From IMG/VR virus record IMGVR_UViG_3300011416_000039, positions 1 through 22,079 of that record: DNA of 22,079 bases; one strand, 5' to 3'. Source of the stretch: a virus. This document shows positions 1-19,665 of the stretch, piece by piece (the stretch's first letter is position 1; every line of letters starts with the position of its first letter). Made by a program: the position numbers and the translations under genes. The notes beneath the pieces are model-generated. The model saw nothing but the letters and a program-made list of their open reading frames with translations, did no database searches and had not been told where the DNA came from.

Positions 1-1
1 C

Positions 2-871
2 GGCACGCGCAATCACTACAACACGACGATGCGGCAGCTGTACATGGTGGCGCTCCTCGCGGAGTACCGGCACCTCTCCGGCGGCCTGACGATGAACCCG
101 TTCGAAGGCCGCCCGCGCGATCCGCGCGTCATTCGAAAAGTGGCCCTCACCCCAGCGCTCGTGCTCGCGTGGCTGGAGCAGATGTCCTATCATGCGCGTC
201 TCGCCGTGGCGATCGCCGCGCTCGCCCCGAAGCTCCGCCTCCGCAACGTGCTCGATCTCGAGTGGGCGACGCACCTCGATCGGGAGCTGACGACGATCAC
301 GGTCTGGGCACACAAGAGCGTAGGCCGCACCGAGGCGCCGCTCGTGATTCCGGTGAGCGCGCAGCTGCGCACGATTCTCCAGGACGCGCGCGCGCGGCAT
401 CGATGGGCGCGCCATGTCGTCACGTATCGTGGGGCCCCGGTCGCGTCCATCCGGAGCGGGATCCGGGCCGCCGCGAAGGCCGCGCAGATTCCGTACGGGC
501 GTCGATTGCCGGGCGGCGTCACCTTCCACACGTTGCGGCATACGGCGGCGACGATCCTCGCGCGACTCAACGTGAGCCCGTGGCTGCAGCGCGACGTGCT
601 CGGGCATCAGGATCTCTCGACGACGGAAGGCTACACGCACCTGCTCGTCGAGGAGCAACGCGCCCCGCTCGAGCAGCTCTCGGCCGCGCTCCCGATTGCG
701 TCGATCGTGACGCGAGCGGACACGCGCGCCAGTCGGAGCCACGCGGGGGCACCCCGATCAGGAAGCAGTCAGAATGCGCCAGAAATCAGCGGCCTCACGC
801 GGCGTCCGCGACGGGCCACGGGCCGCCCGTTCACGCCTAAACCGCAAACCACTCAAGGAGTTAGAAGATGA
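2..871 (+). CDS. int: Tyrosine recombinase (phage integrase), 5' end outside window
   Basis: Site-specific recombinase expected to integrate the phage at the attachment core just downstream. Numbered from the first in-window ATG (position 29), the catalytic set is visible: an Arg in the LRLRNVLDLEW segment (R70 or R72), Lys96, the HTLRH box (H167, R170), His193 in LGHQD and the nucleophile Tyr202 in EGYTHL. The frame is open to the left edge and residues before that ATG look like part of the core-binding domain, so the gene almost certainly starts outside the window. About 70 residues follow the catalytic domain, rich in Arg, Ser and Pro. The TGA stop overlaps the ATG of the next ORF (ATGA), and the tRNA-like attachment core begins 13 bases after the stop. 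Family assignment is firm; the exact start is not visible. Confidence 0.95.
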   Translation, partial: GTRNHYNTTMRQLYMVALLAEYRHLSGGLTMNPFEGRPRDPRVIRKVALTPALVLAWLEQMSYHARLAVAIAALAPKLRLRNVLDLEWATHLDRELTTITVWAHKSVGRTEAPLVIPVSAQLRTILQDARARHRWARHVVTYRGAPVASIRSGIRAAAKAAQIPYGRRLPGGVTFHTLRHTAATILARLNVSPWLQRDVLGHQDLSTTEGYTHLLVEEQRAPLEQLSAALPIASIVTRADTRASRSHAGAPRSGSSQNAPEISGLTRRPRRATGRPFTPKPQTTQGVRR

Positions 872-1317
872 CATCGCAACGTACTCAGGAGCTAGTGGCC
901 GCAAGGTCATCGGGGTTCGAGTCCCCGCTTCCGCACCAATCACTTACGGCGATCGGCGGGGGCACGACAGCTAGTGGCTCTCACAAGAACGGGGGCACTG
1001 ACGTCCCTGTATCCCGCGGCCTCCGGCGCCACCGGACGGCGTTCCGACTGTTCCTCGCCCCGATCGTGATCGCCCTGGCGGTGGTCGCCTGGCTGTTCAC
1101 CACGGACTGGCCCACCCCGCCGCATCAGCCGGCGGATTCCTTGACCGGTGTGCCGCCGCCCCACGTCTTCGCGGCGCCGCGCGACGTGGAGCAGCCGCCG
1201 TGGATGCCGTGCGGCGAGGGGCGCGTCGTCTGGTTTCGGCCGCTGGTGATGGGTGAGGCCTGCACGGCCGAGAACGAACGGGCGGCGATTGCCGCCGAAC
1301 GGGTGCGCCCGCGATGA
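868..1317 (+). CDS. Putative single-pass membrane protein whose 5' end contains the attachment core
   Basis: A 149-codon ORF starts with ATG overlapping the integrase stop and has a strong ribosome site (AAGGAG, 7 bases before ATG). Codons 6-24 are the 3' half of a tRNA-Leu. A charged stretch (RGLRRHRTAFR) follows, then one transmembrane segment (LFLAPIVIALAVVAWLF, about residues 66-82) and a Pro-rich outer domain with two Cys. I see no in-frame ATG, GTG or TTG between the tRNA part and the membrane segment, which supports the start at 868. No family is recognised. If real, integration would separate its first codons from the membrane domain, so it would be made only from the non-integrated genome. 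Alternatively the N-terminal third is fortuitous and this is a decayed gene. Confidence 0.5.
   Translation: MTSQRTQELVAARSSGFESPLPHQSLTAIGGGTTASGSHKNGGTDVPVSRGLRRHRTAFRLFLAPIVIALAVVAWLFTTDWPTPPHQPADSLTGVPPPHVFAAPRDVEQPPWMPCGEGRVVWFRPLVMGEACTAENERAAIAAERVRPR
884..938 (+). other. Attachment core (attP-like): 3' half of a tRNA-Leu(CAG)
   Basis: The segment matches the 3' part of a class II tRNA: anticodon loop CTCAGGA (884-890, anticodon CAG), 3' anticodon strand GCTAG, a variable arm TGGCC-GCAA-GGTCA (896-909), T arm CGGGG-TTCGAGT-CCCCG (911-927), acceptor strand CTTCCGC (928-934), discriminator A and CCA (936-938). The acceptor sequence is typical of bacterial tRNA-Leu. The 5' half is missing: bases before the loop (ACGTA) do not pair with GCTAG and no GCGGAAG lies upstream. 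It is therefore not a working tRNA but the usual att core of a tRNA-targeting integrase. Structural genes on one side and int on the other is the attP arrangement of lambda-like phages. Exact core limits need the bacterial site. Confidence 0.85.
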
Positions 1318-1334
1318 GGGGAAGGAGGTCGAAC

Positions 1335-1357
1335 CGGCGGCGGGTACCGCGCCGCCG
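1335..1357. terminator. Hairpin between convergent genes, possible bidirectional terminator
   Basis: An 8-bp perfect stem (CGGCGGCG with CGCCGCCG) encloses a 7-base loop. It lies between the end of the plus-strand membrane ORF (1317) and the end of the minus-strand late operon (1368). There is no T-run on either side, so termination is inferred only from position and stem strength. Confidence 0.4.
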
Positions 1358-1367
1358 ATCCGGTGCG

Positions 1368-1439
1368 TCAGCGCTTCTTCGCGGGCCGCGCCTTCGTCTT
1401 GCCGCCGGTCGGGCGGGCCGCGCTCTTGCGAGTTCCCAT
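1368..1439 (-). CDS. Very small Lys/Arg-rich peptide (23 aa)
   Basis: An ATG at 1439 follows a near-perfect ribosome site (AGGAGG with 9 bases to ATG). It encodes a 23-residue peptide of which 9 residues are Lys or Arg, ending in a lysine-rich tail (KTKARPAKKR). It is the last gene of the minus-strand run. Such basic peptides often bind nucleic acid, but nothing here proves a role. The same frame is open upstream to a GTG at 1562, which would give 64 aa (start MAMKPPCPDWP), but that start has no clear ribosome site and the strong AGGAGG would then be coding. I favour the short form. Confidence 0.45.
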   Translation of the reverse strand: MGTRKSAARPTGGKTKARPAKKR

Positions 1440-1571
1440 AGGGGATCTCCTCCTAACGCGCGAGTGTAACGCCGATTCGTCTGGTTGCAGCCGCGGAAGT
1501 GCGTCATCCTCGCGGGGCTCTTCGCGCGTCGGCCAGTCCGGACAGGGCGGCTTCATCGCCACGACTCGCGC

Positions 1572-2030
1572 TCACGGCCGCAGCTGCGCGGACGTGCGCT
1601 GCCGAATGTAGCGGCGGAGTTCGCCGACGGTCACGCACGCGAACTGCCGCTGATAGTGCCAGGGGTCGAGGAGGACGCAGACCTGCTCGTCGCTCGACAG
1701 CGTTTCGTGGAGGACGAGCGGCGGCGTGGGAGTCGTGACCGGGGCCGGCGTCGCAGTCGCGCACCCGACAACGAGGACGATCGGGACGAGCAGCGCCGCG
1801 AGGCGTCGGGCGGCGCGCGGGAAGTTCTTGTTCGTGGCCGCGAAGTACACGAGCTCACCCCGCTCGTTGAGGCGAATCGCGAAGCCGCAGCCGTTACACA
1901 GTTCGGCGCCGCGGACGTGCTCACGCTGCTGCGGCGGCGCGTCACAGATCGGGCACGGGAACGGCGCGATCGGCGTCATCCTGCGCAAGACGTCCGAGAG
2001 ATCTGGGCTGACCATCCCGTCGGCGTTCAC
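1572..2030 (-). CDS. Zinc-ribbon protein with membrane/lipobox segment (possible spanin-like lipoprotein from internal start)
   Basis: 152 aa from a GTG that overlaps the stop of the preceding DUF5675 gene (GTGA), so it is translationally coupled to the lysis-like cassette. Residues about 25-50 form a four-Cys zinc ribbon (CPIC ... CNGC). A hydrophobic stretch (about 73-88) ends in a lipobox-like VVGC, followed by a Pro/Thr-rich tether (ATPAPVTTPTPP) and a C-terminal domain with two Cys. A cytoplasmic zinc ribbon before a lipobox is odd. An in-frame GTG at 1850 would give a 92-aa product with a normal lipoprotein signal, resembling proline-rich outer-membrane spanins (Rz1 type). Both starts may be used. 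Spanin identity is inference from position and signal only. Confidence 0.7.
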   Translation of the reverse strand: MNADGMVSPDLSDVLRRMTPIAPFPCPICDAPPQQREHVRGAELCNGCGFAIRLNERGELVYFAATNKNFPRAARRLAALLVPIVLVVGCATATPAPVTTPTPPLVLHETLSSDEQVCVLLDPWHYQRQFACVTVGELRRYIRQRTSAQLRP

Positions 2031-2269
2031 GCGGCGACCTCGCTCACCGGCGGCGGGTTCTCAATGACGATCCAGATCTCGCCCGCGGCCCGCGCGATCA
2101 GCGGAAAGAGTGCTTCGAACGCGACCCGCGACTGCAACACGCGGCACGGCGCGCGGTCGCGGCCGACGAGGAGGCAGCCGGAGGTATCGCCGATCCCGTT
2201 GCCAGGGTGAATCCGGATCCCTTCGAACCCGGGCACGTCCACCAGGAGCGGCAGCGGCCGTTGAAACGG
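2027..2269 (-). pseudogene. DUF5675 family protein, 3' half (gene split by insertion)
   Basis: This is the C-terminal half of a DUF5675 protein. It begins at FQRPLPLLVDVPGFEG, then RIHPGN and TSGCLLVGR, and ends with the family's typical tail. The His and Cys motifs recall those of L,D-transpeptidase-like folds, and the family is common in phage lysis regions, so a cell-wall role is plausible but unproven. The matching N-terminal half lies at 3162-3359, about 890 bp away on the same strand. The reading frame stays open into the inserted DNA up to a GTG at 2449, but those extra residues do not look like the family. The two halves together give about 147 codons, a normal family length. Confidence 0.85.
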
Positions 2270-2422
2270 TAACAATATACTAGACGGACCAATGTTTGAA
2301 TCAATGAAGGCGAGCGGGCCTTCGCAGATTTGCACGCGAGCCGGTGCGTGTTGGTGCCGCTCAGTTAAGAGTACCCTTTGGGATCTGAGAGTGGTAGGAT
2401 TGCGCTCAGGGGAGTACTCCGC

Positions 2423-2438
2423 TAGCTCCAACGAGCTA
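2423..2438 (-). terminator. Small hairpin at the stop of the 46-aa gene
   Basis: TAGCTC-(4-base loop)-GAGCTA forms a 6-bp stem whose first bases are the TAG stop of the 46-aa gene. A further 10-bp palindrome (GGAGTACTCC, 2411-2420) follows downstream. No T-run is present, so this is a weak terminator candidate. Confidence 0.3.
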
Positions 2439-2576
2439 CTTCTTTCCACGGATCACCAGCCGCCAAGCCGATTTGCCGTAGGCTGAAGCATAGAGCCGCT
2501 TCCCATTCCGGAGGGTAATGTACTTGGTGTAGATCACCTCGTACCCCTCCGGAACTTCCGCGTCCTTCTTGGACAT
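2436..2576 (-). CDS. Small basic hypothetical protein (46 aa) within the insertion
   Basis: ATG at 2576 is preceded by a purine-rich ribosome site (AAAGGGGGG, 8 bases before ATG). The product begins MSKKDAEVPEGYEVIYTKYI, continues with TLRNGKRLYASAYG, and ends in a basic tail (RGKK). The even residue mix and good ribosome site argue that it is a real small gene. It appears to be a compact beta-rich basic protein; no function is recognised. It starts just inside the truncated 5' end of the divergent HARE-HTH gene, so its own promoter would lie in that gene. It is not part of the phage late operon in origin. Confidence 0.65.
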   Translation of the reverse strand: MSKKDAEVPEGYEVIYTKYITLRNGKRLYASAYGKSAWRLVIRGKK

Positions 2577-2581
2577 CCTAA

Positions 2582-2960
2582 ACACCCCCCTTTCAGACGG
2601 CTGTGCGCGAATACATGGAGCGGATCAAGCGCGCCGCAAGCACCGAGGAGATCGTCAAAGCTCTTGAGCAGGGTGGATTCGATTTCAACGAGCAGGGCTG
2701 GGCCAAGGGGCATCGTCCTCGGATCCTGGCGATTGCGCTGGTGAAGAGCACGGCCGTGTTTCGTCGCGCTTCCAAACGGGATGTTTGGCTTGGAAGGCTG
2801 GTACGAGCCGCGTGCAAAGAAGGGACGAAATGGGGACTCGGAACCAGACAGCGAGAAAAAGCTGAGCGGGAAAGCCAAAGCCACGCGAAAGAAACGCTCC
2901 AAGAAATCATCCGCGCCAGTGTCGGCGGCGGAGCAAGGCTCAGGAGAAGGAGGCGCCTGA
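2582..2960 (+). pseudogene. HARE-HTH (winged helix) domain protein, 5'-truncated and frameshifted
   Basis: The frame opens right after a TAA at 2579 with PPFQTAVREYMERI and continues as a HARE-HTH domain (TEEIVKALEQGGFDF, ILAIALVKSTAVFRR). At the AAA of 2774-2776 the similarity jumps to the next frame, where SNGMFGLEGWYEP and a Lys/Ser-rich tail follow to TGA at 2958-2960. One extra A explains the shift. HARE-HTH proteins are predicted DNA-binding adaptors linked to modification systems. The N-terminal part seen in relatives is absent, and the nearest start (GTG 2603) lacks a ribosome site. This is therefore probably a gene remnant; a sequencing error could explain the frameshift but not the missing 5' end. 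Confidence 0.75.
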
Positions 2961-3028
2961 TGACTAGGAGGGCGCTGGCTCTCGCGTCCGCCGCACGACC
3001 CCACCGACGCGAGGGCCAAAAAGAAGAA

Positions 3029-3068
3029 GGGCCATTCCCGCCCGCCTGATAACGAATGGGAATAGCCC
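3029..3068 (+). repeat. Inverted repeat downstream of HARE-HTH remnant
   Basis: GGGCCATTCCC (3029-3039) and GGGAATAGCCC (3058-3068) form an 11-bp stem with one mismatch and an 18-base loop. It lies between the HARE-HTH remnant and the strong terminator. The role is unknown; it may be part of the 3' untranslated region. Confidence 0.4.
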
Positions 3069-3103
3069 GTGGTGGGCACCCTCCATAGAGAGCGTCCGCT
3101 CTA

Positions 3104-3160
3104 CGCATTATCGGCTGCTTTCCTTGCGCCCAGCAAGGGCCGATAATGCGCCTATTTTTT
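3104..3160 (+). terminator. Strong intrinsic terminator (two-tier hairpin plus T6)
   Basis: An outer 12-bp perfect stem (CGCATTATCGGC, 3104-3115, with 3139-3150) encloses an inner 6-bp stem (CCTTGC, 3122-3127, with GCAAGG, 3133-3138) and a 5-base loop. It is followed by CCTA and six T (3155-3160). This is a classic rho-independent terminator for plus-strand transcription coming from the HARE-HTH side. It sits directly against the right insertion junction, so it came in with the insert. Confidence 0.85.
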
Positions 3161-3161
3161 G

Positions 3162-3359
3162 GTGCGACGGCGTGACAATCACGCGGTAGCGGCCTGCGGG
3201 AATCGCGGTCGCGCCGGGCACCTTCCACGCGCCGACCGGTTCGCCCGGCCGCTCACGGATCTCGTCTTCGAGTGTGAACGCGGCGAAGTGCCCGTCGACG
3301 AATAGGCAACCGAGCGTCGCGCCCTCCAGTGACGGTTCGCGAACAAGTCGGAGTCTCAC
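3162..3359 (-). pseudogene. DUF5675 family protein, 5' half (gene split by insertion)
   Basis: The start is GTG at 3359, overlapping the stop of the preceding 32-aa gene (GTGA). The first residues (MRLRLVREPSLEG) match the usual family N-terminus. They are followed by LFVDGHFAAFTLEDE, then AIPAGRYRVIVTPSH, where family similarity stops. Translation would run into inserted DNA and add about 17 unrelated residues (to 3108). An upstream GTG/ATG in the same frame would give a longer protein but would overlap the membrane peptide. As it stands the gene cannot make a complete DUF5675 protein unless the insert is removed from DNA or RNA. Confidence 0.85.
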
Positions 3360-3454
3360 GACGGCCTCCAGCGCCGCCAGAGGCCCCATAGGCAGAGGAC
3401 GATCACCGTCCAACAGACCGCCTGAATCCCGCCGACGTCGAGGCTGAACGTCAT
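3356..3454 (-). CDS. Small single-span membrane peptide (32 aa)
   Basis: ATG at 3454 overlaps the stop of the XhlA-like gene (ATGA) and its TGA overlaps the GTG of DUF5675 (GTGA), so it is coupled on both sides. The peptide has a short N-terminus, one hydrophobic helix (IQAVCWTVIVLCLWGLW) and a basic C-terminal end (RRWRPS), giving a likely N-out/C-in or pinholin-like layout. Position between an XhlA-like protein and a putative cell-wall protein suggests a holin or accessory holin. The tight coupling supports it being real. Confidence 0.65.
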   Translation of the reverse strand: MTFSLDVGGIQAVCWTVIVLCLWGLWRRWRPS

Positions 3455-3675
3455 GACGCCTTCCCGCCCATCAGCCCCGCGAAGAAGCCGCCGACGAGCC
3501 CGCCGATCGAGCCCCAGAGGCCGCCCAGCTTGGCGCCGCGGTTTTCGCGATCCTCGAGGATACCGACGCGTGTCTCGAGCTTGTAATGGTCGCCGGCGAT
3601 CGCGTCGAGTTGGTCGCTCATCCGCTCACAGAGCCGATAGAGCTCGCCGAGGGTGACCTGATCGTCGGGCGACAT
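3451..3675 (-). CDS. XhlA/holin-like protein (coiled coil plus membrane segment)
   Basis: 74 aa. Residues 1-45 form an amphipathic, probably coiled-coil region (LYRLCERMSDQLDAIAGDHY, ETRVGILEDRE). The C-terminal end is a Gly-rich hydrophobic segment (LWGSIGGLVGGFFAGLMG) followed by a Lys. This layout is that of haemolysin XhlA-type phage proteins, which help holins act at the membrane. It is the first gene of the lysis-like cassette; the 32-aa membrane peptide, DUF5675 gene and zinc-ribbon/lipobox gene follow. The start ATG at 3675 has no obvious ribosome site. Confidence 0.7.
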   Translation of the reverse strand: MSPDDQVTLGELYRLCERMSDQLDAIAGDHYKLETRVGILEDRENRGAKLGGLWGSIGGLVGGFFAGLMGGKAS

Positions 3676-3695
3676 GGTGAGGATCTGTGGCCGGT

Positions 3696-3719
3696 AAACA
3701 CTTACTCAAACACTTACTC
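3696..3719. repeat. 12-bp perfect tandem duplication over a stop codon
   Basis: AAACACTTACTC occurs twice head to tail (3696-3707 and 3708-3719). On the minus strand each copy carries GAGTAA, so the stop codon of the gene at 3714-4121 is duplicated in frame. Confidence 0.9.
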
Positions 3720-4121
3720 GGTCGAAATGAACGGCTCGCGCGCGCGAAGCTTCACGACGCAATCGAGAATCGCGCCACCAACGATCTGAGGGTGCGGGTT
3801 GTAGCCACGGACGTTCTCGTCACCCCAGAAGCGATCCCACCTCCAGCCGAATCGGATCGTCGCCCACCGTCCGCTGTAGGGAATGGCGATCGCGACATGC
3901 TGTCGCCCGTTCGGCCAGGTCTGCGTCTCGAACAACGCCCCGCCCGCCCACTGCTCGACGCGAATCTGCGGCGGCTCGGCGGACTTGAACGACTGCAGCC
4001 GCTGGATCAGCGCGAGCTGTGTGCCGAGCGCGCCAGGAATGCGCCGGTCGGTGCCCTGGTTCACGAACATTCGATCCGGCGGATAGTCCGCCCGTGGGTC
4101 GGTGGTATCGATCTCGTTCAT
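3714..4121 (-). CDS. Hypothetical phage protein (135 aa)
   Basis: The start is ATG at 4121 (MNEIDTTDPRADYPPDRMFV), chosen because AAGGAG lies 10 bases upstream; longer in-frame starts lack this. The protein is soluble, rich in Trp and aromatic residues (GRWATIRFGWRWDRFWGDEN) and has no membrane segment. I do not recognise the family. It lies between the secreted-protein block and the lysis-like cassette in the late operon, so a virion accessory or lysis role is possible. The stop lies in a 12-bp tandem duplication. Confidence 0.75.
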   Translation of the reverse strand: MNEIDTTDPRADYPPDRMFVNQGTDRRIPGALGTQLALIQRLQSFKSAEPPQIRVEQWAGGALFETQTWPNGRQHVAIAIPYSGRWATIRFGWRWDRFWGDENVRGYNPHPQIVGGAILDCVVKLRAREPFISTE

Positions 4122-4126
4122 CGGCG

Positions 4127-4258
4127 TCAGGCTCCTTCGCATCGAAACAACACATCCACCTCGTTCGCGCGCACGCGGACGTCGGTGACGTACCGCCATC
4201 CCTCCGCACGCATCGCCACGCGCAACGCGTCGACGTCCGGCCGCCGGGACCGTTTCAC
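4127..4258 (-). CDS. Small charged hypothetical protein (43 aa)
   Basis: GTG at 4258 opens a frame beginning VKRSRRPDVDALRVAMRAEG and ending in a short beta-like segment (VRANEVDVLFRCEGA). It fills the gap between the FN3-like secreted protein and the 135-aa gene, and its last codons contain the ribosome site of the next gene. The helix-then-strand pattern (RPDVDALRVAMRAEGWRYVTDVRV) looks like a genuine small fold. No ribosome site is visible before the GTG and no family is recognised. Confidence 0.5.
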   Translation of the reverse strand: MKRSRRPDVDALRVAMRAEGWRYVTDVRVRANEVDVLFRCEGA

Positions 4259-4269
4259 GAGCGGCGCAT

Positions 4270-4728
4270 CTACGGCGTAATCAGTAGCGCCGTCGGTGCA
4301 GGCAGCGGCCCCGGCCGCCCGAAAGGGACCGGGTTCGACCAGGCGCCTTTCGTCGCGCCGTTCGCCGTGCGCGCATAGAGGTCGTATTCCTTGTCTGGCT
4401 CGACGCCGAACAGGAAGGCGCCCACGGTCGACAGCCGATAGCAGTCCGCCGTGCCCGCCACGAGCGACCACGACGCCTTCGTCACGCTGACACTCGCGAC
4501 CGGCACCCCGGTCGAGGGCCCCGTGCCGCGCTCGACCACGAACAGCTCGGTCTCCGTCCACTTCGGCGCGCCGCCAAACGTCGCTGTGAAATCGGGGAAA
4601 CTGCCGTGCACCGCGTGGTTCGTGCTGGTCAGCACGGTCAGCGCCGGCGGCGGCGGGGTGCACGGGTTCTGCGCCCACGTCGGCGCGGCGATACCGAGCG
4701 CGATCAATGTCCATACGAGACGAGCCAT
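4270..4728 (-). CDS. Secreted fibronectin III/Ig-like protein (152 aa)
   Basis: ATG at 4728 has a good ribosome site (GGAGG, 6 bases). The first 20 residues form a Sec signal peptide (MARLVWTLIALGIAAPTWAQ, cleavage after AxA-like TWA/Q). The mature part begins NPCTPPPP, has two Cys and a beta-sandwich look (EYDLYARTANGATKGAWSNP near the end is typical of FN3 strands F-G). It overlaps the end of the beta-helix gene by 25 bases and is the last of four consecutive signal-peptide genes. A role at the host surface or on the virion after lysis is open; no enzyme motif is seen. Confidence 0.8.
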   Translation of the reverse strand: MARLVWTLIALGIAAPTWAQNPCTPPPPALTVLTSTNHAVHGSFPDFTATFGGAPKWTETELFVVERGTGPSTGVPVASVSVTKASWSLVAGTADCYRLSTVGAFLFGVEPDKEYDLYARTANGATKGAWSNPVPFGRPGPLPAPTALLITP

Positions 4729-6365
4729 TGCGGAACCTCCACGAGTCGCCCAAGCCAGAAGGGCAGGCTGTAGCGTTGAATCTGATAGAACACCGTCAAC
4801 ACCGCGTCGGTGCAGAGCAGGCCGGCATCGCAGGCCGTGACCGTGAGCACGTTCTTGTCCGGCTGCAGCACGATCACCGGCACGAACCACGTCTCGAGGC
4901 CCTCGCACGAACCGGCGCCGCCGCGACTGTTCGACCAACTACACGTGACAACGGCGAGGTTGTCGCTCGCGGTGCCGGAGAGCGGCGCGAAGGGCGGCCC
5001 GAGGTTGGCGAACTCAGTGAAGTAGTTCGCGTCCGAGGTTGGCCCTGTGATCGTGATGATCGGCGCGGTGTTGCCTTCGATGAACTCGTAAGCGCCGGGA
5101 TCGTAGGCGCCGCCTTGGGGCCGCACGGTGCCGACAATGTCGGGCGTCGCCTGCGTGAGCGTCGCGCCGTTATTGCGCGCCGGGCTCCCTGATTGGAGCC
5201 GGAAGTCGTCCGCGCCGGGGTTGACCAGGAGCGGATCGGCATTCGTCCACCCCCCAGCCGAGACCGGTGTGCCGTAGTTGTTCGTCTCACTCGCGAAGCT
5301 GGCGCCGCCCGGTCCTATGAGGCGGACCGTCGGCGTGGCTGCACAGACGTTGTTCCGCACCGTCAGATTCGTCGCGCCGCTATCGAACTGGACGCAATAC
5401 GTGGCCGGGTTGTAGCAGGTATTGTTGATGACCGTCGCGGAGCTGCTGCCGATCACGAGGCAGCCCGAATTTGACGACTGTCCGCTGTTCGACGGGAAAA
5501 TGTCCCAGATGACGTTGTTGACGATCAGGCCTGATGGCGCCGACGACGCATAGAGGATGCCGCAGCCGCGGCGCGATCCCGACAGTTGTAAGTTGTTGTG
5601 GACCTTGTTCCGCCGCGCCGTGTTGCTCCCGGCGGTCGGACCGCTCCCGCTGTAAACGTGAATCCCGCACGCCGAGAAGTTGTGTATGTCGTTGTCCTCC
5701 ATCAGCACGTTGTCGTCAGCCGAATAGATCCCGTGGCTGAGGCCTTCATTTGTTCCGCCGTGATGGATCTCGCATCGCGTGATCTCGTGGAAGCCGGCGC
5801 CGTGATCGTTGAACTGGATCAGCGCGAACGGAACGCTCGTGTTGCCAGATATTTCGCAGTGGTTGAAGCGGATATGATGCGCGCCCCATCCGGTCGTGAC
5901 AGGGCTGGTGCAAAAGTCGCCGTCGACATAGACGTAGTCGAACTCGATGAACGCGCGATTGATGCCAACCGCGAGGCACCAGGGCCTGTTGCCGTTGTCG
6001 GCGAGCGGGCGCAGCGTCCACACCGTGCCGGCCGGCCAGCCGCGAATCCAGATTTTGTTCGTCCAGCTCGTGCCGCTGCCGATGCCGCCGACGTTCGGCG
6101 CACCGCCAGAATCGTTCAGCCAGAAATTCTCGTTGTAGACCCCCGCGCCGACGCGAATCTCATCCCCCGCGGTGATCGTGCATTTGCCGACACCGTTGGT
6201 GCCGGAGAACGTGAGCTTGGGCGCGGTCGGGTTCCCCTGGCCGTCGACCTGCTGGGCCTGCGCACAGGTGTTGTTGTCGTTGCCGGTCTTCGAGACATGG
6301 AAGTTCGCGGCCTCGGCGGCGCTCGCCGCGCACAGCAAGAGGAGCGTCAGCAGCACGCGGACCAT
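4704..6365 (-). CDS. Secreted right-handed parallel beta-helix protein with Ig-like C-terminus (553 aa)
   Basis: ATG at 6365 overlaps the previous stop (TGATG). Residues 1-19 are a signal peptide (MVRVLLTLLLLCAASAAEA). Then comes NFHVSKTGND, typical of pectate-lyase-like secreted proteins, followed by many Asn-rich helix rungs (NNVIWDIF, INNTCYNPATYC, VRNNVCAAT) to about residue 430. A DPGAYE motif closes the helix. The last 120 residues look like an Ig-like domain (APIITITGPTS ... LAVVTCSWS). About a dozen Cys suggest disulfides outside the cytoplasm. Phage tailspikes and polysaccharide depolymerases share the beta-helix fold, but those normally lack signal peptides. No catalytic residues can be assigned by eye. 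Confidence 0.85.
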   Translation of the reverse strand: MVRVLLTLLLLCAASAAEAANFHVSKTGNDNNTCAQAQQVDGQGNPTAPKLTFSGTNGVGKCTITAGDEIRVGAGVYNENFWLNDSGGAPNVGGIGSGTSWTNKIWIRGWPAGTVWTLRPLADNGNRPWCLAVGINRAFIEFDYVYVDGDFCTSPVTTGWGAHHIRFNHCEISGNTSVPFALIQFNDHGAGFHEITRCEIHHGGTNEGLSHGIYSADDNVLMEDNDIHNFSACGIHVYSGSGPTAGSNTARRNKVHNNLQLSGSRRGCGILYASSAPSGLIVNNVIWDIFPSNSGQSSNSGCLVIGSSSATVINNTCYNPATYCVQFDSGATNLTVRNNVCAATPTVRLIGPGGASFASETNNYGTPVSAGGWTNADPLLVNPGADDFRLQSGSPARNNGATLTQATPDIVGTVRPQGGAYDPGAYEFIEGNTAPIITITGPTSDANYFTEFANLGPPFAPLSGTASDNLAVVTCSWSNSRGGAGSCEGLETWFVPVIVLQPDKNVLTVTACDAGLLCTDAVLTVFYQIQRYSLPFWLGRLVEVPQWLVSYGH

Positions 6366-7069
6366 CAGCCGACCCCCAGTAAGGTCCGCTTCCCACGTGC
6401 CCCGCCGCCCGCGGCGGCTTCTGGATAAATCCCCATCGCGCAGATCGTGTCGACGCTGCTCCCGGTCGTGAACGGCCCCGTGTTCGAGCTGAACGCGGCG
6501 ATCTGATGCTGCGCCATGTGTCCAACCCCGGAGCCTGCCGTATCGCGTGTCCAGCCAGAGCCCGCTGTCGTGGTCGGCGCGCCGCTGTAGATACATGTCG
6601 CCACGCCGAAACCCGTCGCGGTCAGGCCCGTGCTCGACGACGTGTGGCTCGTGCCGGTATCGCCGTTCGTGCCGGTCTGGACCATCGCCGAGTTGTCCGC
6701 GCCGTTCAATTCGTAGGCCCAGGCGGTCCAGTTGTCGCCGCCACTTGGTGCGTCGATGGCGACGTTGACGAACCCGCCAGTGATATTCCGAAAGTGCTTG
6801 ATGACGACCAGGGTCGGCGAGCCGCCGATGACCGCCTGTGTATAGGCGCCGTTCGTCGCGTCAGAGATGCCATACGTGCCGCTGGCGCCGCCGTTGTGCA
6901 TGAGCGCCACCACCACCGCGTTGCCGGTCTGCGTGTTCATGCCGAACGTGACGTTCGCGTCGCCGCTCTGCGTGTTGTTCGCCGTCTGGACGAGCGTGAC
7001 CGCGGCCTCGGCGTCCGGCCCGGCGACGAGCAGCAGCGCGACGAGGAGGGTGAGGGGTAGCGTCCTCAT
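6365..7069 (-). CDS. Secreted beta-rich protein (234 aa)
   Basis: ATG at 7069 overlaps the preceding stop (ATGA). A signal peptide (MRTLPLTLLVALLLVAGPDAEA) is followed by AVTLVQTANNT and a Gly/Ser/Thr-rich beta domain of about 200 residues (GNAVVVALMHNGG, WTAWAYELNGADNSAMV). The pattern matches a jelly-roll-like domain found in many exported bacterial and phage-associated proteins. The C-terminal end is short and basic (GGGARGKRTLLGVG). It is the second of four signal-peptide genes in a row. Function unknown; carbohydrate or surface binding is a guess from fold type. Confidence 0.8.
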   Translation of the reverse strand: MRTLPLTLLVALLLVAGPDAEAAVTLVQTANNTQSGDANVTFGMNTQTGNAVVVALMHNGGASGTYGISDATNGAYTQAVIGGSPTLVVIKHFRNITGGFVNVAIDAPSGGDNWTAWAYELNGADNSAMVQTGTNGDTGTSHTSSSTGLTATGFGVATCIYSGAPTTTAGSGWTRDTAGSGVGHMAQHQIAAFSSNTGPFTTGSSVDTICAMGIYPEAAAGGGARGKRTLLGVG

Positions 7070-7605
7070 GGCGCGTTCTGCTGCACGAAGGTGAGATAGC
7101 CACCGACGGCGATCGCTCCAGACAGCTCGATGCAAAACGCCTGGCCCGAGGGCACCTTGATCTGCACATGCCCCGCGTTGGTCCTCACGAAGCCGCGGCC
7201 GTTCGTCGCGTCCAGCGGATAGAGGCCGCTGATATTCGTCTCGCCCGTACCGCAACTGGAGCCGGTGCCGTACACGAACTGCAGATCGACGTCGCCGTCG
7301 GCCAGGATGTCGTAGCCGCAGATGTAAATGAGCGTCGTCCCGCTGAGCGCGACGATCTGGTTCTTCCCGGATGAGGAGATGGCAATCGGCGCGGTCGTGA
7401 TCTTGTTCGCGTCGTTACAGATCGCCGGCGGACACGTCACGCTGTTGCACTTGGAGACGTCCACCTTCTCTTCAGTGAACTGCGCGGCCGCCATCGCGGC
7501 CTCGGCCTCCGCATACCGGTTGAGTGTGACCTCGGCTCGTGCGGCGGCGGCCGACGAGAGCGCGAGCGCAAGTGTGAGGAAGAGAAGGATCAGCAGTTTC
7601 TTCAT
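7066..7605 (-). CDS. Secreted Cys-rich hypothetical protein (179 aa)
   Basis: ATG at 7605 overlaps the previous stop (ATGA). A clear Sec signal (MKKLLILLFLTLALALSSAA, ending AARA) precedes a mature part with six or more Cys, including KCNSVTCPPAIC. The remainder is beta-rich (IVALSGTTLIYICGYD, GGYLTFVQQNA). It fits the description of small conserved phage-operon proteins that measure about 150-200 aa, but I cannot name a family. Cys content fits an exported, disulfide-bonded product. First of the secreted block as transcribed. Confidence 0.8.
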   Translation of the reverse strand: MKKLLILLFLTLALALSSAAAARAEVTLNRYAEAEAAMAAAQFTEEKVDVSKCNSVTCPPAICNDANKITTAPIAISSSGKNQIVALSGTTLIYICGYDILADGDVDLQFVYGTGSSCGTGETNISGLYPLDATNGRGFVRTNAGHVQIKVPSGQAFCIELSGAIAVGGYLTFVQQNAP

Positions 7606-8174
7606 GGCAGTCCTACGATGGTGACGACGACGTTGGACGCGCCGCCGAGCGTGATCGACACGCACCGGGAGCGCGTGTAGAGCGCGGGATAGGCGTCGCC
7701 GCCGGGCGCAAACTTCAGCGCGCCGTCGGCATCGCCGCCGGTGTTGCTGTGGGTGATGAGGATCGTCCAGTTGGCATTGTCGAGGCTCACCTCGTAGACG
7801 ACGTTCCACGCCGTCGGCGCGGCCCCGGTGCCTTTGACCTGCAGACTGTGCCGCGCGAGCCCTGTGGTGGCGGCGTTGATGGCGGTGCCGGACGCCGCGC
7901 CGGTATAGGTGTCCTGCCGCGTCGCCATCACCGCGACCGCGCCGATGAGCGTCGTGAGTCGCTGCGCGATCCGCTGCAGGCGCCCGTTCAGGCCGCTTGA
8001 GGCGGTGTCGCTCGCCGGCGCCGTCTCCGTGAGCGACCCCAGCTTCGCGGCGATCGCGCCGTCGCTGCCGTCGTTCTCCGTGAGGCGGACGTGCTGCACG
8101 CCCTCGTCGCCGACGAAGGTCGCGCGGACCTTTTTCTCAGTGCTGAAGAAGTCTTTAAAGCTCCAGGACGCCAC
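7602..8174 (-). CDS. Phage hypothetical protein, likely tail-tip/fibre associated (190 aa)
   Basis: The start is GTG at 8174 with GGAGG 9 bases upstream. Residues 1-50 are charged and include ATFVGDEGVQHVRLTENDG. A hydrophobic helix (LTTLIGAVAVMA) precedes a C-terminal beta domain (about 105-190) with VYEVSLDNANWTILITHSN, a pattern seen in small beta-sandwich modules of phage tail appendages. There is no signal peptide. It is coupled to the first secreted gene (ATGA). Role inferred only from position. Confidence 0.75.
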   Translation of the reverse strand: MASWSFKDFFSTEKKVRATFVGDEGVQHVRLTENDGSDGAIAAKLGSLTETAPASDTASSGLNGRLQRIAQRLTTLIGAVAVMATRQDTYTGAASGTAINAATTGLARHSLQVKGTGAAPTAWNVVYEVSLDNANWTILITHSNTGGDADGALKFAPGGDAYPALYTRSRCVSITLGGASNVVVTIVGLP

Positions 8175-8178
8175 GGCG

Positions 8179-8481
8179 TTAGACCTCCGACTCCGGCGCT
8201 TCGGGTGCCGTCGGCGCCTCCAGCGGTTCCGCCGGCGCCTCGATCTTCGGGTGCATCAGCGCGTCGGCCGCCGCCTCGCTCAACTTGTCGCCAAACGTCT
8301 TCTGCTGCGCGTCGAACGGACGCAGCAGGAGCTGCTTGTGCTCGATGCCCTGGCCGACCTCCGGGTGATCGGTCACTTCCGTCATCCCGTCCGGTGGCGT
8401 CGCGCTCGCCGCGCCTTCCCCGTCGATCTCGAGGACCTCGTCCACCACGCCGCCGACCGTTCGCACGAAATAGCGCCGCAT
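8179..8481 (-). CDS. Hypothetical phage protein with acidic, Pro/Ala-rich tail (100 aa)
   Basis: ATG at 8481 (MRRYFVRTVGGVVDEVLEID) is preferred; a GTG at 8490 in the same frame would add three residues. The N-terminus is a beta hairpin-like segment, the middle is charged, and the last 30 residues are Glu/Ala/Pro-rich (PKIEAPAEPLEAP). No family is recognised. It lies among small tail genes with overlapping or near-overlapping stops and starts. Confidence 0.7.
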   Translation of the reverse strand: MRRYFVRTVGGVVDEVLEIDGEGAASATPPDGMTEVTDHPEVGQGIEHKQLLLRPFDAQQKTFGDKLSEAAADALMHPKIEAPAEPLEAPTAPEAPESEV

Positions 8482-8483
8482 GG

Positions 8484-8753
8484 TTACCACCCCGTATCCA
8501 CTTCGCCGCCGACCGTCGCGCTGCTACCGGTGGCCCCACGCGTGCCGGTGATCGTCGTGCTATTAGTGAGTGCTAAGCGGATCGACGTGGCGTCGAACGA
8601 CGAGCCCTCCGCGCCTAAGTGCCGCAATTTGCTCTTGCCTGTGTCGACCGATGTGATCGTCGCGGTCTTCGACGACTCGCTCGTAAACGCGATGGTGAAG
8701 CGTTGAATGAGGCGGTCGACGCGCGCCCGCGCCCGTAGCGTAGACACCGGCAT
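8484..8753 (-). CDS. Small beta-rich hypothetical tail-region protein (89 aa)
   Basis: ATG at 8753 overlaps the stop of the preceding gene (TAATG). The protein is Ser/Thr-rich with alternating hydrophobic strands (FTIAFTSESSKTATITSVD, SIRLALTNSTTITGTRG) and no Cys or membrane segment. It looks like a small virion structural protein. No name can be given. Confidence 0.7.
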   Translation of the reverse strand: MPVSTLRARARVDRLIQRFTIAFTSESSKTATITSVDTGKSKLRHLGAEGSSFDATSIRLALTNSTTITGTRGATGSSATVGGEVDTGW

Positions 8754-9538
8754 TACGTGACGACCTCCAGCACCGTGAGCCGCGCGCTGACGACGCTGGC
8801 CTGCGACGCCTTCCCCTGCACGAAGTCGTTCACCGCGAGTAGGCGGGGCGTGTCATCGAGGAGTGTTTCTTTCGAGACGAGCGTGTCGCCAAAGATCTCG
8901 TCCTCGGCCGACGACGTGTCGCCGGATTCAACGATCGTGATGTTCGGCGCCCGGTCGACCGTGTCGGTGTTGCAGAGCGTGTAATTGAGGAGGAGCGCGT
9001 GCTTCAGGCTCCCGGCGTTCGCCGTGTAGAGCGTCGAGTAAGACGTCCCGAGCGCGACGCCGTCGATCACCTTCAGCGTGAGCCCACCTGGCTGCGCCGC
9101 GTACTCGGTCACTTCCGCGCGCAGCGCGACGAGGTTCGTCGTGCCGGCCTTCCCGCGAATCGTGCCGGAGGCGCCGAGGAACCAGCCGCCGGTCGGCGCG
9201 AGGATGGCCGTCTCGCCCGCCTCCAGGGTGTCGTCGAAGATGCGCTCCGCGACGCCGGCCGATCCGGCGTTCGGCACGAGGTAGAGTTCCACCGCGAGCG
9301 CGGCCGAGTGGGTGTTCCGAAGCGTCAGCCCGTGCACGTGCGCGACTCCGCTCCCAGGCGCGGTGTATAGCGTCGTGACAGCGCCGGTGAGTAGCACGCC
9401 GGCGAGGCGCTTCGCGTCCACCGTCGTCACGGCGCTCTGGTCCTCGTCGAACATGGGGAACAGGAGCCGCCCGAGGATCGAAACGCGGTTGATCCGCTTC
9501 TCCTTGATCGTGTCGCCCGCGAGCCACAACGTACTCAC
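8753..9538 (-). CDS. Virion-associated protein with two homologous beta domains (261 aa)
   Basis: GTG at 9538 overlaps the previous stop (GTGA). The first 45 residues (MSTLWLAGDTIKEKRI, SILGRLLFPMFDED) precede two related domains. Domain 1 (about 48-145) has TTLYTAPGSGVAHVHGLTLR, then RIFDDTLEAGETAIL. Domain 2 (about 160-258) has STLYTANAGSLKHALLLNYT, then EIFGDTLVSKETLL. Both end with a strand rich in Val (VALRAEVTE and VSARLTVLEV). The pattern is that of a beta-sandwich repeated twice, common in phage appendage proteins. Binding partner unknown. Confidence 0.8.
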   Translation of the reverse strand: MSTLWLAGDTIKEKRINRVSILGRLLFPMFDEDQSAVTTVDAKRLAGVLLTGAVTTLYTAPGSGVAHVHGLTLRNTHSAALAVELYLVPNAGSAGVAERIFDDTLEAGETAILAPTGGWFLGASGTIRGKAGTTNLVALRAEVTEYAAQPGGLTLKVIDGVALGTSYSTLYTANAGSLKHALLLNYTLCNTDTVDRAPNITIVESGDTSSAEDEIFGDTLVSKETLLDDTPRLLAVNDFVQGKASQASVVSARLTVLEVVT

Positions 9539-9810
9539 TGGACGATCTCCAGTCCGATCCGCGCGCCGCGTGGCGCCGGCACGTGGTCGCCAGCCACCAG
9601 CCGACCGAGCGTGTCCTTCGCGAACCGCACGACGACGTCACACTCAGGACAGACGATCGGGCCGACGTACGGAGACCCATCCGGCAGCCGCAGGTCCCCC
9701 GGCATCACGGAGGCGCCGGCGGAGAACCCGCCCGTCCAGAGCGCGACCACCGCGCCGCAGGAGGAGTGGCGCACGTCGCGAAGCGGGTGACCGTTGACCA
9801 CGACTCGCAT
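9535..9810 (-). CDS. Small Cys-containing hypothetical protein (91 aa)
   Basis: ATG at 9810 (MRVVVNGHPLRDVRHSSCGA) overlaps the preceding stop (TGATG), which decides the start over an upstream in-frame GTG. It contains one CPEC pair and a separate SSCG, possibly a split metal site, and is otherwise beta-like. It is coupled on both sides with tail-tip genes. No family recognised. Confidence 0.7.
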   Translation of the reverse strand: MRVVVNGHPLRDVRHSSCGAVVALWTGGFSAGASVMPGDLRLPDGSPYVGPIVCPECDVVVRFAKDTLGRLVAGDHVPAPRGARIGLEIVQ

Positions 9811-10286
9811 CAGGCCACCGAGAGCGTGAGTTGCCACGTCCACCGCACGGCGATGCTGCCGGTCTTCGTGATCGGGCTGGAGAGGACGTAGCGCGCGAAC
9901 AACGTGTTCGCCGCCGTGAAGAGACCCGCCTCGCGGAGCGTGTTGCCGTTGCCCTGGTTGGCGGCGAGGTAGTAGCTGAGCGTCACCGCGAGATCGGTTT
10001 TGACGCGGGCGGTGAGCTGGTCGCGGAGTAGTTCGGCGACCAGTTGCGTGTCGGTGCTCGCCGGCGCGGTCGCATCGGTGCCGATCGCGAAATGCGTGAG
10101 GCTGCCGGGCGCCTCGTTCGCCAGGAAGTCGCGCAAGAGGTTGAGGCCCGCGTTGACGGTCAGGTTGTGGCCGCGCTCACGGGAGAGCCGCCGGCCTGTA
10201 CGCGCCTCCAGGACGTCGACGCAGACGTTCACCCCGAGACCGAGGCGCTCACGCCGCGTGCTACGGAGAAGGCGCGCGCCACTCAT
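9810..10286 (-). CDS. Phage tail fibre/baseplate-associated protein (158 aa)
   Basis: ATG at 10286 has GGAGG 8 bases upstream. After a basic start comes VNVCVDVLEARTGRRLSRER, then NAGLNLLRDFLA, THFAIGTDATAPASTDTQL and AGLFTAANTLFARYVLS. These are typical of a widespread family of small phage tail/host-interaction proteins that follow hub genes. The protein is all-beta at its C-terminus (VRWTWQLTLSVA). It is separated by 133 bp from the hub gene, a gap that holds an HNH-like remnant on the opposite strand. Confidence 0.75.
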   Translation of the reverse strand: MSGARLLRSTRRERLGLGVNVCVDVLEARTGRRLSRERGHNLTVNAGLNLLRDFLANEAPGSLTHFAIGTDATAPASTDTQLVAELLRDQLTARVKTDLAVTLSYYLAANQGNGNTLREAGLFTAANTLFARYVLSSPITKTGSIAVRWTWQLTLSVA

Positions 10287-10321
10287 GCAGCGGCCTCCAT
10301 CGGTACAATGGCGCTGCCGTT

Positions 10322-10438
10322 ATGCCGAAGATTCCGCGTGTATGTATCCAATGCGACGCTGGGTTTGAAGTCTGGCCAACTGATTTAGACAATCTCGACG
10401 TCATCCTTGCCCCGTTGCGTCAAGCCACTTCGCTGTAA
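10322..10438 (+). pseudogene. Remnant of a zinc-finger/HNH-type gene (38 codons)
   Basis: An ATG ORF on the strand opposite to the late operon reads MPKIPRVCIQCDAGFEVWPT. This resembles the N-terminal zinc-knuckle of phage HNH-type homing proteins (R-x-C-x2-C-x-x-x-F-x-V-x-P). In intact relatives a second Cys pair and the nuclease follow; here the similarity ends after the WP and the frame stops at 10438. It has no ribosome site and sits in the only sizeable gap of the tail-tip region. The likely history is insertion and decay of a homing gene. The match is short, so confidence is limited. Confidence 0.4.
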
Positions 10439-11886
10439 CCGCACTCCGCAAATCCCACCCGACTCTCAACGCTGACGTTCTGCGTGTCGAGCACGTCGGC
10501 GATCTCCGCCCCGTCGACGCGCCGGCGGAGCAGCACGAGGACCTCGTTCTCGCGGATGACATAGTCGCGGCCCATCTCGGCGAGCTTCTGAAAGAAGGCC
10601 ACCCAGCCGCCCTGGAAGTCGCCCTCGAGCGCGCGCACGCTGAACATCAGGTGCGGCTCGCCGTCGGCATCCGGCTCCGTCCACTCCGAGGCGCTGACCG
10701 ACTCGATCAGGAATTGGTCGTTGAGCCCGAGCTTGGCGTTCGTGATGGTGACGAGCTGCCCGGCGCGGAACCCGGACGTCCTGGTCGTCGCGTCGATGAC
10801 CCGCGTCACGCGGCCGAACCGCGCGAGCAGTTGGTCGGCGGTTTCGAGCGCCAGGTCGCCGGCGTCGATGTTCGGTCGATCCTCGACGTGTTCGTAGCGG
10901 CCACTGCCGCCGTCGAGGTTCGCGCGCGTCGCGATCTCGTTGTCGTCCTCGGCGCCCACGATCAGCGGCACCTGGCCTTGATAGGTCACCGCAAGGACGT
11001 CGGCCGTGCCGAGCACGGTGCCGGTGTCCGACTGCGCGATCTCGGTCTTACCCTTGTTCCAGTACCAGTCCTTATCGCTCTCGACGCCGAGGATGCCGAC
11101 GATCTGGGCGAGGCCATTGATGGTGATGATCGGCTCGGTGCCCGCCGCAAACGCCAGATTGAAGACGCGCCGCGTGCCGTCCCCAATGAACGACTCCGTG
11201 CGCGGATCGGTGAGGTCGGTGCCGGCGCGCACGGTCTGCGCGTTGCGGTACTGGTCGACGCTCGACGACACGCGCATCGTGACGTGCGTGGTGTTCCCGA
11301 TCGCTGCCGGCGCGAGGACGGAGGACCGCGCGCGCACGTGCAGGCGCTTGAACGGGTCGATCCACCAGGTCATCCCCGACAGCTCACTCAGCTCGTTGAA
11401 CGCCTGATCGACGTAGAGGTAGTTGAAGACGGCCTTCACGATGGTCGGCCCGTCCTCGACGTCGCCGAGGGTGATCCCTTCGCCGAAGAGGAAGTTCGTC
11501 CGGATGTCGGCGACGATCGCGCCGACGGTCATCTGCTCGTAGCTGGCCGCGACGAGCCGTCGCTGCGGGATAGCGCTGTAGTCCTGCGCCTGAATGTCGT
11601 AGACGAGGAACTCGGAGTCGCCGTCTTGCTCGATCGCGACCTCGCTGACGATGCCCCCGAACATCAGGAGGCCGTCCTCCGCGAGCACGATCCGTGAGCC
11701 GACGGCGACCGGCGCCGGGGTCGTGTAGTGCGCGCGCACCTTGATCGCGAACGTGTCTCGGCTGTTGAGCGCGGTGTTCCACGACAGCGACCCATCGATC
11801 GGCGCGACGCCGATGCCGCTGATCAGGACGTCGATGCCCTCAGCGTCGACGATATCGTCCGAGGGGAAGAAGAGGACGATCGACAT
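10420..11886 (-). CDS. Tail hub / tail-tip structural protein (488 aa)
   Basis: ATG at 11886 overlaps the tape-measure stop (TAATG). The N-terminal 200 residues (GIGVAPIDGSLSWNTALNSR, GSRIVLAEDGLLMFGGIVSE, SAIPQRRLVAASYEQMT, ELSGMTWWIDPFKRLHV) match the general pattern of phage hub proteins of the gp27/gpD-like type, which form the ring at the end of the tail tube. A middle beta insert (about 228-305) is followed by another hub domain (ARFGRVTRVIDATTRTSGFR, GQLVTITNAKLG) and a helical end. Position directly after the tape measure fits. Hub versus distal tail protein cannot be settled by eye. Confidence 0.75.
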   Translation of the reverse strand: MSIVLFFPSDDIVDAEGIDVLISGIGVAPIDGSLSWNTALNSRDTFAIKVRAHYTTPAPVAVGSRIVLAEDGLLMFGGIVSEVAIEQDGDSEFLVYDIQAQDYSAIPQRRLVAASYEQMTVGAIVADIRTNFLFGEGITLGDVEDGPTIVKAVFNYLYVDQAFNELSELSGMTWWIDPFKRLHVRARSSVLAPAAIGNTTHVTMRVSSSVDQYRNAQTVRAGTDLTDPRTESFIGDGTRRVFNLAFAAGTEPIITINGLAQIVGILGVESDKDWYWNKGKTEIAQSDTGTVLGTADVLAVTYQGQVPLIVGAEDDNEIATRANLDGGSGRYEHVEDRPNIDAGDLALETADQLLARFGRVTRVIDATTRTSGFRAGQLVTITNAKLGLNDQFLIESVSASEWTEPDADGEPHLMFSVRALEGDFQGGWVAFFQKLAEMGRDYVIRENEVLVLLRRRVDGAEIADVLDTQNVSVESRVGFAECGYSEVA

Positions 11887-14681: not shown

Positions 14682-15108
14682 GGCGTCGCCCCTGTTGTTG
14701 TGCCCGGCGCTGCTGCCGCTCGCGCTGCGCCTCGGCGAGCACGGTGTTCGACACGTCGCGGAGGCAGTCGAGGGCCTGCATCAGGTACGCGTCCTGTTCG
14801 CCGAGACTGCCCGGCCCAGGCAGCGCGCTCCGGTGATAGAAGCCGTCCCGCACGTCATGTGTCCATTCAAACCACCGCTGTAGGTCCTCGACCTCGGGGG
14901 TGAACAAGAGCACCGGGCACGTCTTGAGCCGAACGCCGTCATCGCTCACCCACACGTCGTGCTCACGCTCGATGCCATCGCAGCTCCGCTCGTAACAGAG
15001 GGCGCGCCGTCGGCACTCGTCGCAGGAGGTGCCGGTCTCACTCCAGAGGCTTCCGGTCCCTCGGGTCCGTTGGAGGAAGGCAGAGAATCGGACGGCGAGG
15101 GTGAGTCG
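14674..15108 (-). CDS. Tail assembly chaperone T domain, reached by -1 frameshift
   Basis: This frame has no stop from the slippery site (15108) to 14674 and encodes 144 residues. Part 1 is RLTLAVRFSAFLQRTRG, then a Cys cluster (CDEC-x6-C-x4-C) and VWVSDDGVRLKTCPVLLFTP, EVEDLQRWFEWTHDVRDGFY, then a basic Gln/Arg end. Its size and position before the tape measure match lambda gpT. Fused to the first 212 residues of the upstream gene by a -1 shift at A AAA AAC it would give a 356-aa GT protein. A separate start at GTG 14955 (93 aa) is possible but would lose the Cys cluster and has no strong ribosome site. Confidence 0.85.
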   Translation of the reverse strand, partial: RLTLAVRFSAFLQRTRGTGSLWSETGTSCDECRRRALCYERSCDGIEREHDVWVSDDGVRLKTCPVLLFTPEVEDLQRWFEWTHDVRDGFYHRSALPGPGSLGEQDAYLMQALDCLRDVSNTVLAEAQRERQQRRAQQQGRRRG

Positions 15109-15743
15109 TTTTTTAGTGCAGGCCGGAACATGTTCTTGTCACGGATCGCTCGCAGCGTCGCCATTAGTACGTCGCGTCGCGCCCCCCACAGGGTGACGAG
15201 TTCACTACCCTCGGTGGCGTCGTGTGTCTGGCCCGTCGCGTGATCCGTCACCTCGATCTGGCCAGGCACCACGCGCACATACCGGCTGATCGAATTCCCG
15301 AGGAACGTGCGCCGAACGTCCTCCTCCTCGTCGTGTAAGCGTTCGTACTCCCCGCGCTGCGGGGCGGTCATCTCGACGAGGCGCCGGCGTCGGATCTCCG
15401 TATCCGGAATGACGAAGTCGCTGCGCTCGACGATCGAGGCCTTGTACGCGCCCAGGAGTGAGTGCAGGCGGTCGTCCTTATAAAGGTCGACGGCCTCACT
15501 GAACTCCACGAGCTGCTGCTCGTCGGTGAGCGCGGCCGGCCGCCGCTCCTGCTCCTCGCCGGGCAGGCGCATCGACACCAAGCGATCTGAATGCGCATCG
15601 AAGACGTGTCGAAGCCCCGCGATGAAGGCAGCGAAGTCGTCGAGCGTCATCCGCGTAATGAGCAGGTCGATCGCGTAGCCGTCGATCGGGACCGTCGCTG
15701 GGTGATACCCCGACGTGACTTTGAGTTTTGGGTTGCCTGACAT
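14946..15743 (-). CDS. Tail assembly chaperone, G-like zero-frame product (265 aa)
   Basis: ATG at 15743 follows AAGG at suitable spacing; a GTG two codons earlier is possible. Residues 1-205 are the conserved part (LITRMTLDDFAAFIAGLRHV, EFSEAVDLYKDDRLHSLLGA, VELMTAPQRGEYERL-like helix), a tail-chaperone pattern that coats the tape measure during assembly. At codons 210-212 lies CTA AAA AAC, the canonical -1 slippery heptamer in the right phase. After it the zero frame runs 53 more residues of Ser/Pro/Ala-rich, low-complexity sequence, as expected for the short tail of a G product overlapping the T frame. It lies between tail tube and tape measure as lambda gene G does. Confidence 0.9.
   Translation of the reverse strand: MSGNPKLKVTSGYHPATVPIDGYAIDLLITRMTLDDFAAFIAGLRHVFDAHSDRLVSMRLPGEEQERRPAALTDEQQLVEFSEAVDLYKDDRLHSLLGAYKASIVERSDFVIPDTEIRRRRLVEMTAPQRGEYERLHDEEEDVRRTFLGNSISRYVRVVPGQIEVTDHATGQTHDATEGSELVTLWGARRDVLMATLRAIRDKNMFRPALKNDSPSPSDSLPSSNGPEGPEASGVRPAPPATSADGAPSVTSGAAMASSVSTTCG
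15108..15114 (-). promoter_or_regulatory. Programmed -1 ribosomal frameshift site A AAA AAC
   Basis: On the minus strand the zero-frame codons are CTA AAA AAC, giving the heptamer A_AAA_AAC at 15114-15108. It follows the X_XXY_YYZ rule exactly. The -1 frame is open from here to the tape-measure start (145 codons) and encodes the T-like domain. A weak stem candidate (CGGACCC/GGGACCG) lies about 35 bases downstream, but I cannot show a proper stimulator. Confidence 0.88.
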
Positions 15744-19663: not shown

Positions 19664-19665
19664 AC

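Follow-up and report, generated by a model that had tools for sequence, protein, structure and literature searches.

The virus record IMGVR_UViG_3300011416_000039, analysed here in full as a window of 22,079 bases, opens within an integrase gene whose stop codon overlaps the start of another reading frame, and that frame continues through the 3' half of a tRNA gene into a membrane protein. This arrangement raises the question of whether integration is used to switch the membrane protein off, as an earlier note on this DNA had proposed, or whether the frame is merely open across the attachment site by chance.

The integrase gene and the coupled reading frame

The following features define the locus at the level of its genes.

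2..871, + strand: tyrosine integrase, C-terminal 289 residues (Pfam PF00589, E 5e-13), with the N-terminus outside the window
855..860, + strand: Shine-Dalgarno-like AAGGAG, read from the sequence, with a 7-nt spacer to ATG868 (chance estimate given below)
868..1317, + strand: 149-codon ORF running from the integrase stop through attP into the membrane-protein part, read from the sequence, with stop TGA at 1315-1317
895..897, + strand: GTG, an in-frame canonical start inside the attP core, with AGGAG 3 nt upstream, followed in the simulated junctions below
1015..1317, + strand: coding-like membrane part, with one transmembrane helix (ORF residues ~58-79), and a 70-residue C-terminal tail containing two Cys

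The complete integrase, of 434 amino acids, is found in a nearly identical sister contig, G001 (IMGVR_UViG_3300011439_000390; integrase at L004:4125-5429, minus strand), which spans window positions 1-17994 and extends a further 6.57 kb upstream. The catalytic residues R224, K250, H321, R324, H347 and Y356 are invariant in an alignment of five homologues, and the window protein, with a Phage_integrase domain and the conserved R, K, H-x-x-R, H and Y, is a tyrosine recombinase. Ahead of the integrase gene and in its orientation, G001 has a gene resembling an HTH regulator and another for a small, holin-like membrane protein. Scans with single proteins (the 149-codon ORF and the integrase) matched only this contig; the two near-identical copies that are known are the same over 868-1317, and the ORF is identical in both.

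The integrase stop (TGA, 869-871) overlaps ATG 868-870 as ATGA, and with AAGGAG at 855-860 both the overlap and the ribosome site described in the earlier note are present. The 149-codon frame does span the tRNA-Leu 3' half, as 868-1317 covers 884-938, and it does enter the membrane protein. The further claim that no standard start follows before the helix holds for the DNA between the core and the helix, where there is none, but not for the core itself, since GTG895 is in frame and is, besides ATG868, the only canonical start before the helix. Two other ways of reading this DNA were rejected: a start in another frame at GTG974 runs into a TGA near 1072, and the minus-strand ORFs at 940-1164 and 1097-1507, which would make the coupled ORF an artefact, score clearly worse.

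The frame falls into two parts. Over codons 1-49 (868-1014), GC by codon position is.59/.61/.63, with no periodicity and with 4861 of 5000 shuffles as uneven; over codons 50-149 (1015-1314) it is.75/.58/.90, which resembles the other genes of this phage and is matched by 0 of 5000 shuffles. The change point lies near 1009-1015, just past the last arm-type repeat of the attachment site. The 100 codons of the membrane part contain no stop codon or frameshift and keep their codon bias. The transmembrane helix has a hydropathy of 2.41, and an AlphaFold model of the ORF product places a helix at residues 50-78 (pLDDT ~90 over 61-80) in an otherwise unstructured chain (mean pLDDT 59).

Searches of Pfam, PHROGs, NCBIfam, PDB sequences, phage records, 193 host-class genomes and 26 related viral records returned nothing homologous to the membrane part. 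When the ORF was compared with the 193 genomes by tblastn, the matches were mostly tRNA-Leu 3' halves (residues ~4-35), the rest being weak and scattered. Residues 50-149 found nothing in the 26 related viral records, and direct tblastn on the relatives gave chance-level matches only, apart from the sister contig. The lytic or exclusion role once suggested for this protein is unsupported, given a membrane part without a homologue in the databases searched.

The attachment site in the window and in related phages

The attachment site has the following parts.

743..752, + strand: P-arm repeat GCGGGGGCAC, within integrase codons, 141 bp before the core; putative integrase arm-type site
884..938, + strand: attP core, the 3' half of tRNA-Leu(CAG) from anticodon loop to CCA, with a 54/55 match in Acidobacteriota MAGs
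941..950, + strand: CACTTACGGC, the word just after CCA, common to relatives (consensus ~ACTTACRG, eight attachment sites compared)
956..965, + strand: P'-arm repeat copy 1, GCGGGGGCAC, from the repeat comparison
990..998, + strand: P'-arm repeat copy 2, CGGGGGCAC, from the sequence

T907 is the single mismatch between the 55-bp core and the tRNA-Leu(CAG) of Acidobacteriota. The exact core is absent from the genome contigs searched, and a near-match search of phage records found none; a relaxed core pattern returned ten stretches, nearly all in Acidobacteriota MAGs. The MAGs with the matching tRNA are labelled mainly Acidobacteria, and the host type appears to be Vicinamibacteria-type Acidobacteriota, with the class name inferred. 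The core equals the 3' part of a host-type tRNA and members of the integrase clade are integrated at tRNA-Leu(GAG) and tRNA-Leu(CAA), and these comparisons support reading 884-938 as a genuine attachment-site core. Two contigs of one Acidobacteria MAG (L011 and L012) each terminate in the same tRNA-Leu(CAG), which is probably an ordinary assembly break.

Related integrases, 40-49% identical, were found in MAGs of the host class, and an alignment-based search added further IMG/VR contigs. Two prophages are complete: G086 is bounded by a 58-bp tRNA-Leu(GAG) repeat, the copies lying ~55 kb apart, and G142 by a 56-bp tRNA-Leu(CAA) repeat, 42.3 kb apart, while contig G094:C44 carries a tRNA-Leu(CAG) core at both ends, as expected for a prophage cut at its repeats. 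The known lysogens of the clade would also be Vicinamibacteria-type Acidobacteriota, again under an inferred class name. Joining the flanks of these three, and reading four more sites directly (L049, L051, L052 and G545), gave eight attachment sites including that of the window. An integrase homologue of 45% identity in genome G124 differs from other clade members, in which integrase and core point in the same direction: it is convergent with a complete tRNA-Leu(CAG) (L024 10765-10851), whose CCA end faces the integrase.

In each of the seven sites measured (window, G086, G142, G094, L051, L049 and L052), a direct repeat common to both flanks begins 139-152 bp ahead of the core, inside the integrase gene. 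Partner copies follow 16-77 bp after the core in most sites, near an ACTTAC-like word that itself follows CCA in most of the eight. In the window the P-arm repeat recurs in the P' arm, and its length was reached by 0 of 100 shuffles. Judged by shuffling, the flank repeats of the window, G086, G142 and G094 are strong; those of L051 and L049 are weak, yet lie at the same spacing. In G545, GGGACC-type repeats were seen by eye on both sides of the core. The flank repeats are best read as putative arm-type sites of the integrase. In the window, attachment-site DNA fills the ORF codons from the core to ~44, and ORF residues 24-49 are, on this comparison, explained by putative DNA-level attachment-arm sites and not by protein selection.

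Beyond the P' arm the neighbouring genes differ, including an SDH-type protease in G086, a DUF3892 gene in G094 and a GT87 glycosyltransferase in L051. The last of these is a membrane gene with its own GTG start ~50 bp beyond the core; a frame opened by an ATG 18 bp ahead of the core also runs into it, without a ribosome site. None of the seven other same-clade sites has an SD-supported ATG frame through the core into the next gene. Conservation of the frame across the core, which the earlier note had named as a check, is therefore not seen in the relatives, and the neighbouring gene differs wherever it was identified.

Effect of integration and competing explanations

To simulate integration, the core of the phage with its downstream arm was fused to the 5' halves of host tRNA genes taken from six contigs. 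In all six junctions an in-frame TAG two codons before CAG886 closes the frame, leaving GTG895, inside the tRNA, as the only canonical start upstream of the helix, and ATG868 ends up at the opposite junction and reads there into host DNA. By this simulation integration would sever codons 1 to ~24, as claimed earlier, and part ATG868 and its ribosome site from the membrane part.

Of the 24 frames in the eight attachment sites, 5 stay open throughout the corresponding 147 bases, against 22% of shuffles of the window segment, and a long open frame across the site is unremarkable. What is unusual in the window is an SD-ATG in the right frame, together with the absence of a later canonical start before the helix. 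An SD with an in-frame start open to codon 49 occurs in 1.8% of dinucleotide shuffles for a 5-mer SD, 0.5% for a 6-mer and 0.3% for a 6-mer with ATG, and in 1-5% of random window pieces. These percentages are probably generous to a switch, because purine-rich codons at the basic integrase tail ease SD-like words and A-TGA overlaps.

The leading explanation, given about an even chance of being right, is that an ordinary tRNA-Leu attachment site lies between the integrase gene and a one-helix cargo gene without its own canonical start, the frame through it being open by chance. Such a site would have one arm site towards the 3' end of the integrase gene, a core that reproduces the tRNA 3' half and further arm sites directly behind that core, and the first ~49 ORF codons would be nothing other than this DNA, which happens to be open in the frame concerned. 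If the cargo gene is made, it would start at the coupled ATG868 (or GTG895), as it has no canonical start after the site, while the genome is circular and the integrase expressed; in the lysogen ATG868 would be carried to the opposite junction, leaving the cargo gene silent behind the tRNA. Expression from the free genome only is plausible, since the coupled start is better than chance (0.3-1.8%). The arrangement is nonetheless probably an accident of gene order, and a selected switch would be absent, since the related phages lack it. The clade-wide layout, the prophage junctions at tRNA-Leu genes, the change point near 1015, the chance-level openness, the varied P' neighbours and the closed lysogen frame all agree with this explanation. 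The rarity of the SD-ATG, in a gene that has no further canonical start beyond the core, counts against it and fits deliberate coupling. The explanation is also weakened in that the arm sites are deduced from repeats, those of L051 and L049 being weak by shuffle.

A selected switch, in which the product of the coupled ORF is functional, is made from the unintegrated genome only and is lost on integration to advantage, seems unlikely, and it is similarly doubtful that the membrane protein depends for its translation on coupling to the integrase in the unintegrated genome and so reports or acts on that free state. The SD-ATGA start, with its frame kept into a coding-like membrane gene and identical in both known copies, is what a switch would show, as is an integration event that takes away the start and leaves only a TAG and GTG895; the HTH regulator, holin-like gene and integrase gene also stand in line upstream in G001. 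However, the arrangement is absent at seven related attachment sites, codons 1-49 lack a coding signature and the product has no homologue in the databases searched. Of the switch first proposed, the loss of the start on integration is retained from the simulated junctions, but not its conservation, as seven same-clade sites have no such frame. Should the coupled frame be used, the act of integration would switch a phage gene off with no regulator needed, and a true switch would be a counterpart to integration-dependent immunity that works at the N-terminus and on a gene other than a repressor. If the frame is unused, the case would illustrate how integration modules in GC-rich genomes yield long open frames over tRNA-derived sites, and with them spurious or chimeric gene predictions.

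It is about equally unlikely that the membrane gene is a remnant, which lost its start through exchange of the integrase-attP module or a start-codon mutation and is not usefully translated in the free or the integrated state, SD-ATG868 being a coincidence. The coding signature does set in abruptly at about 1009-1015, right behind the last arm-type repeat, the P'-side neighbours vary among relatives in a way that shows exchange, the equivalent L051 gene has a GTG at ~50 bp past its core and no homologues were found. A remnant would not be expected to retain 100 codons of biased usage without a stop codon or frameshift, however, and an in-frame SD-ATG is available to it. Least probable, and improbable in itself, is a non-canonical start after the site (e.g. 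CTG1048, which would place the helix at the N-terminus) from which the lysogen would express the gene, downstream of the tRNA, as a conversion gene; the GT87 gene at the same position in L051 has its own start, but no SD-like sequence occurs in the 20 nt before CTG1048, and the coding signature begins ~11 codons before it.

In mycobacteriophage BPs, attP lies inside the repressor gene, and integration removes the repressor 3' end with its C-terminal degradation tag (PMC4557955); integration-dependent immunity of this kind is known for BPs and clusters G, I, N and P (PMC4557955; PMC9934374). The window shares with BPs an attP core within an open frame, coding that is altered by integration, and an HTH repressor-like gene and integrase gene on one strand. 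Unlike in BPs, attP follows the integrase gene, the HTH gene upstream of it in G001 stays intact, and the frame belongs to a membrane protein that would lose its N-terminus and not a degradation tag. The comparison drawn in the earlier note is apt in principle and fails as to the gene, the direction of truncation and the known effect. Literature searches returned no report of an N-terminal analogue of the BPs-type system.

The window also resembles tRNA-gene prophages with lambda-type tyrosine integrases in its catalytic residues, its tRNA-restoring core at the tRNA 3' end and its repeats on both sides, but differs from a lambda-type attP in that a putative arm site lies inside the integrase coding sequence ~140 bp from the core, which an ORF spans. 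The SSV-type archaeal virus integrases have attP inside the integrase gene, which is split by integration at a tRNA gene. Here a frame is likewise interrupted at attP on integration at a tRNA gene, but the integrase gene is intact and ends 12 nt before the core (stop 869-871, core start 884). Lysogenic-conversion genes beside attP, such as the glycosyltransferase cassettes of serotype-converting phages, are read from starts of their own and function in the lysogen. The cargo gene of the window adjoins the attachment site as these do, and L051 has a GT87 gene there, but in the window no canonical start would remain after integration between core and helix. For a clade of poorly known soil Acidobacteriota phages, the comparison defines the attachment sites and tRNA-Leu targets of the integrase.

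Other features of the window and its sister contig

Downstream of the 149-codon ORF, the phage genes (DUF5675, tail, capsid) are on the minus strand. At the far end, window 17263-22079 is overlapped by G551, a contig of the same sample, which reaches ~12 kb beyond. A second tyrosine-recombinase-like gene (PF00589, E 1e-9; reverse complement, 203-1075) lies at the far upstream end of G001, and a tRNA-Met is called by ARAGORN at L004:9842-9933. G001 and the window are identical over most of their overlap, with six differences clustered (window 1733-1791) in a lipoprotein gene at 1572-2030, which has a weak Rz1-like match, and many more in the last ~670 bases of G001 (window 17327 onward); these clusters suggest mosaic exchange or strain mixing. 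The DUF5675 gene (window 2027-3413, minus strand) is split into an N-terminal half at 3108-3413 and a C-terminal half from 2027 to ~2280 by an insertion of ~0.8 kb. The insertion has no match in Rfam or Pfam, carries a 46-codon ORF (MSKKDAEVPEGYEVIYTKYITLRNGKRLYASAYGKSAWRLVIRGKK), is marked at one edge by a perfect inverted repeat of 12 bp (3104-3115/3139-3150) and is present in the sister contig too.
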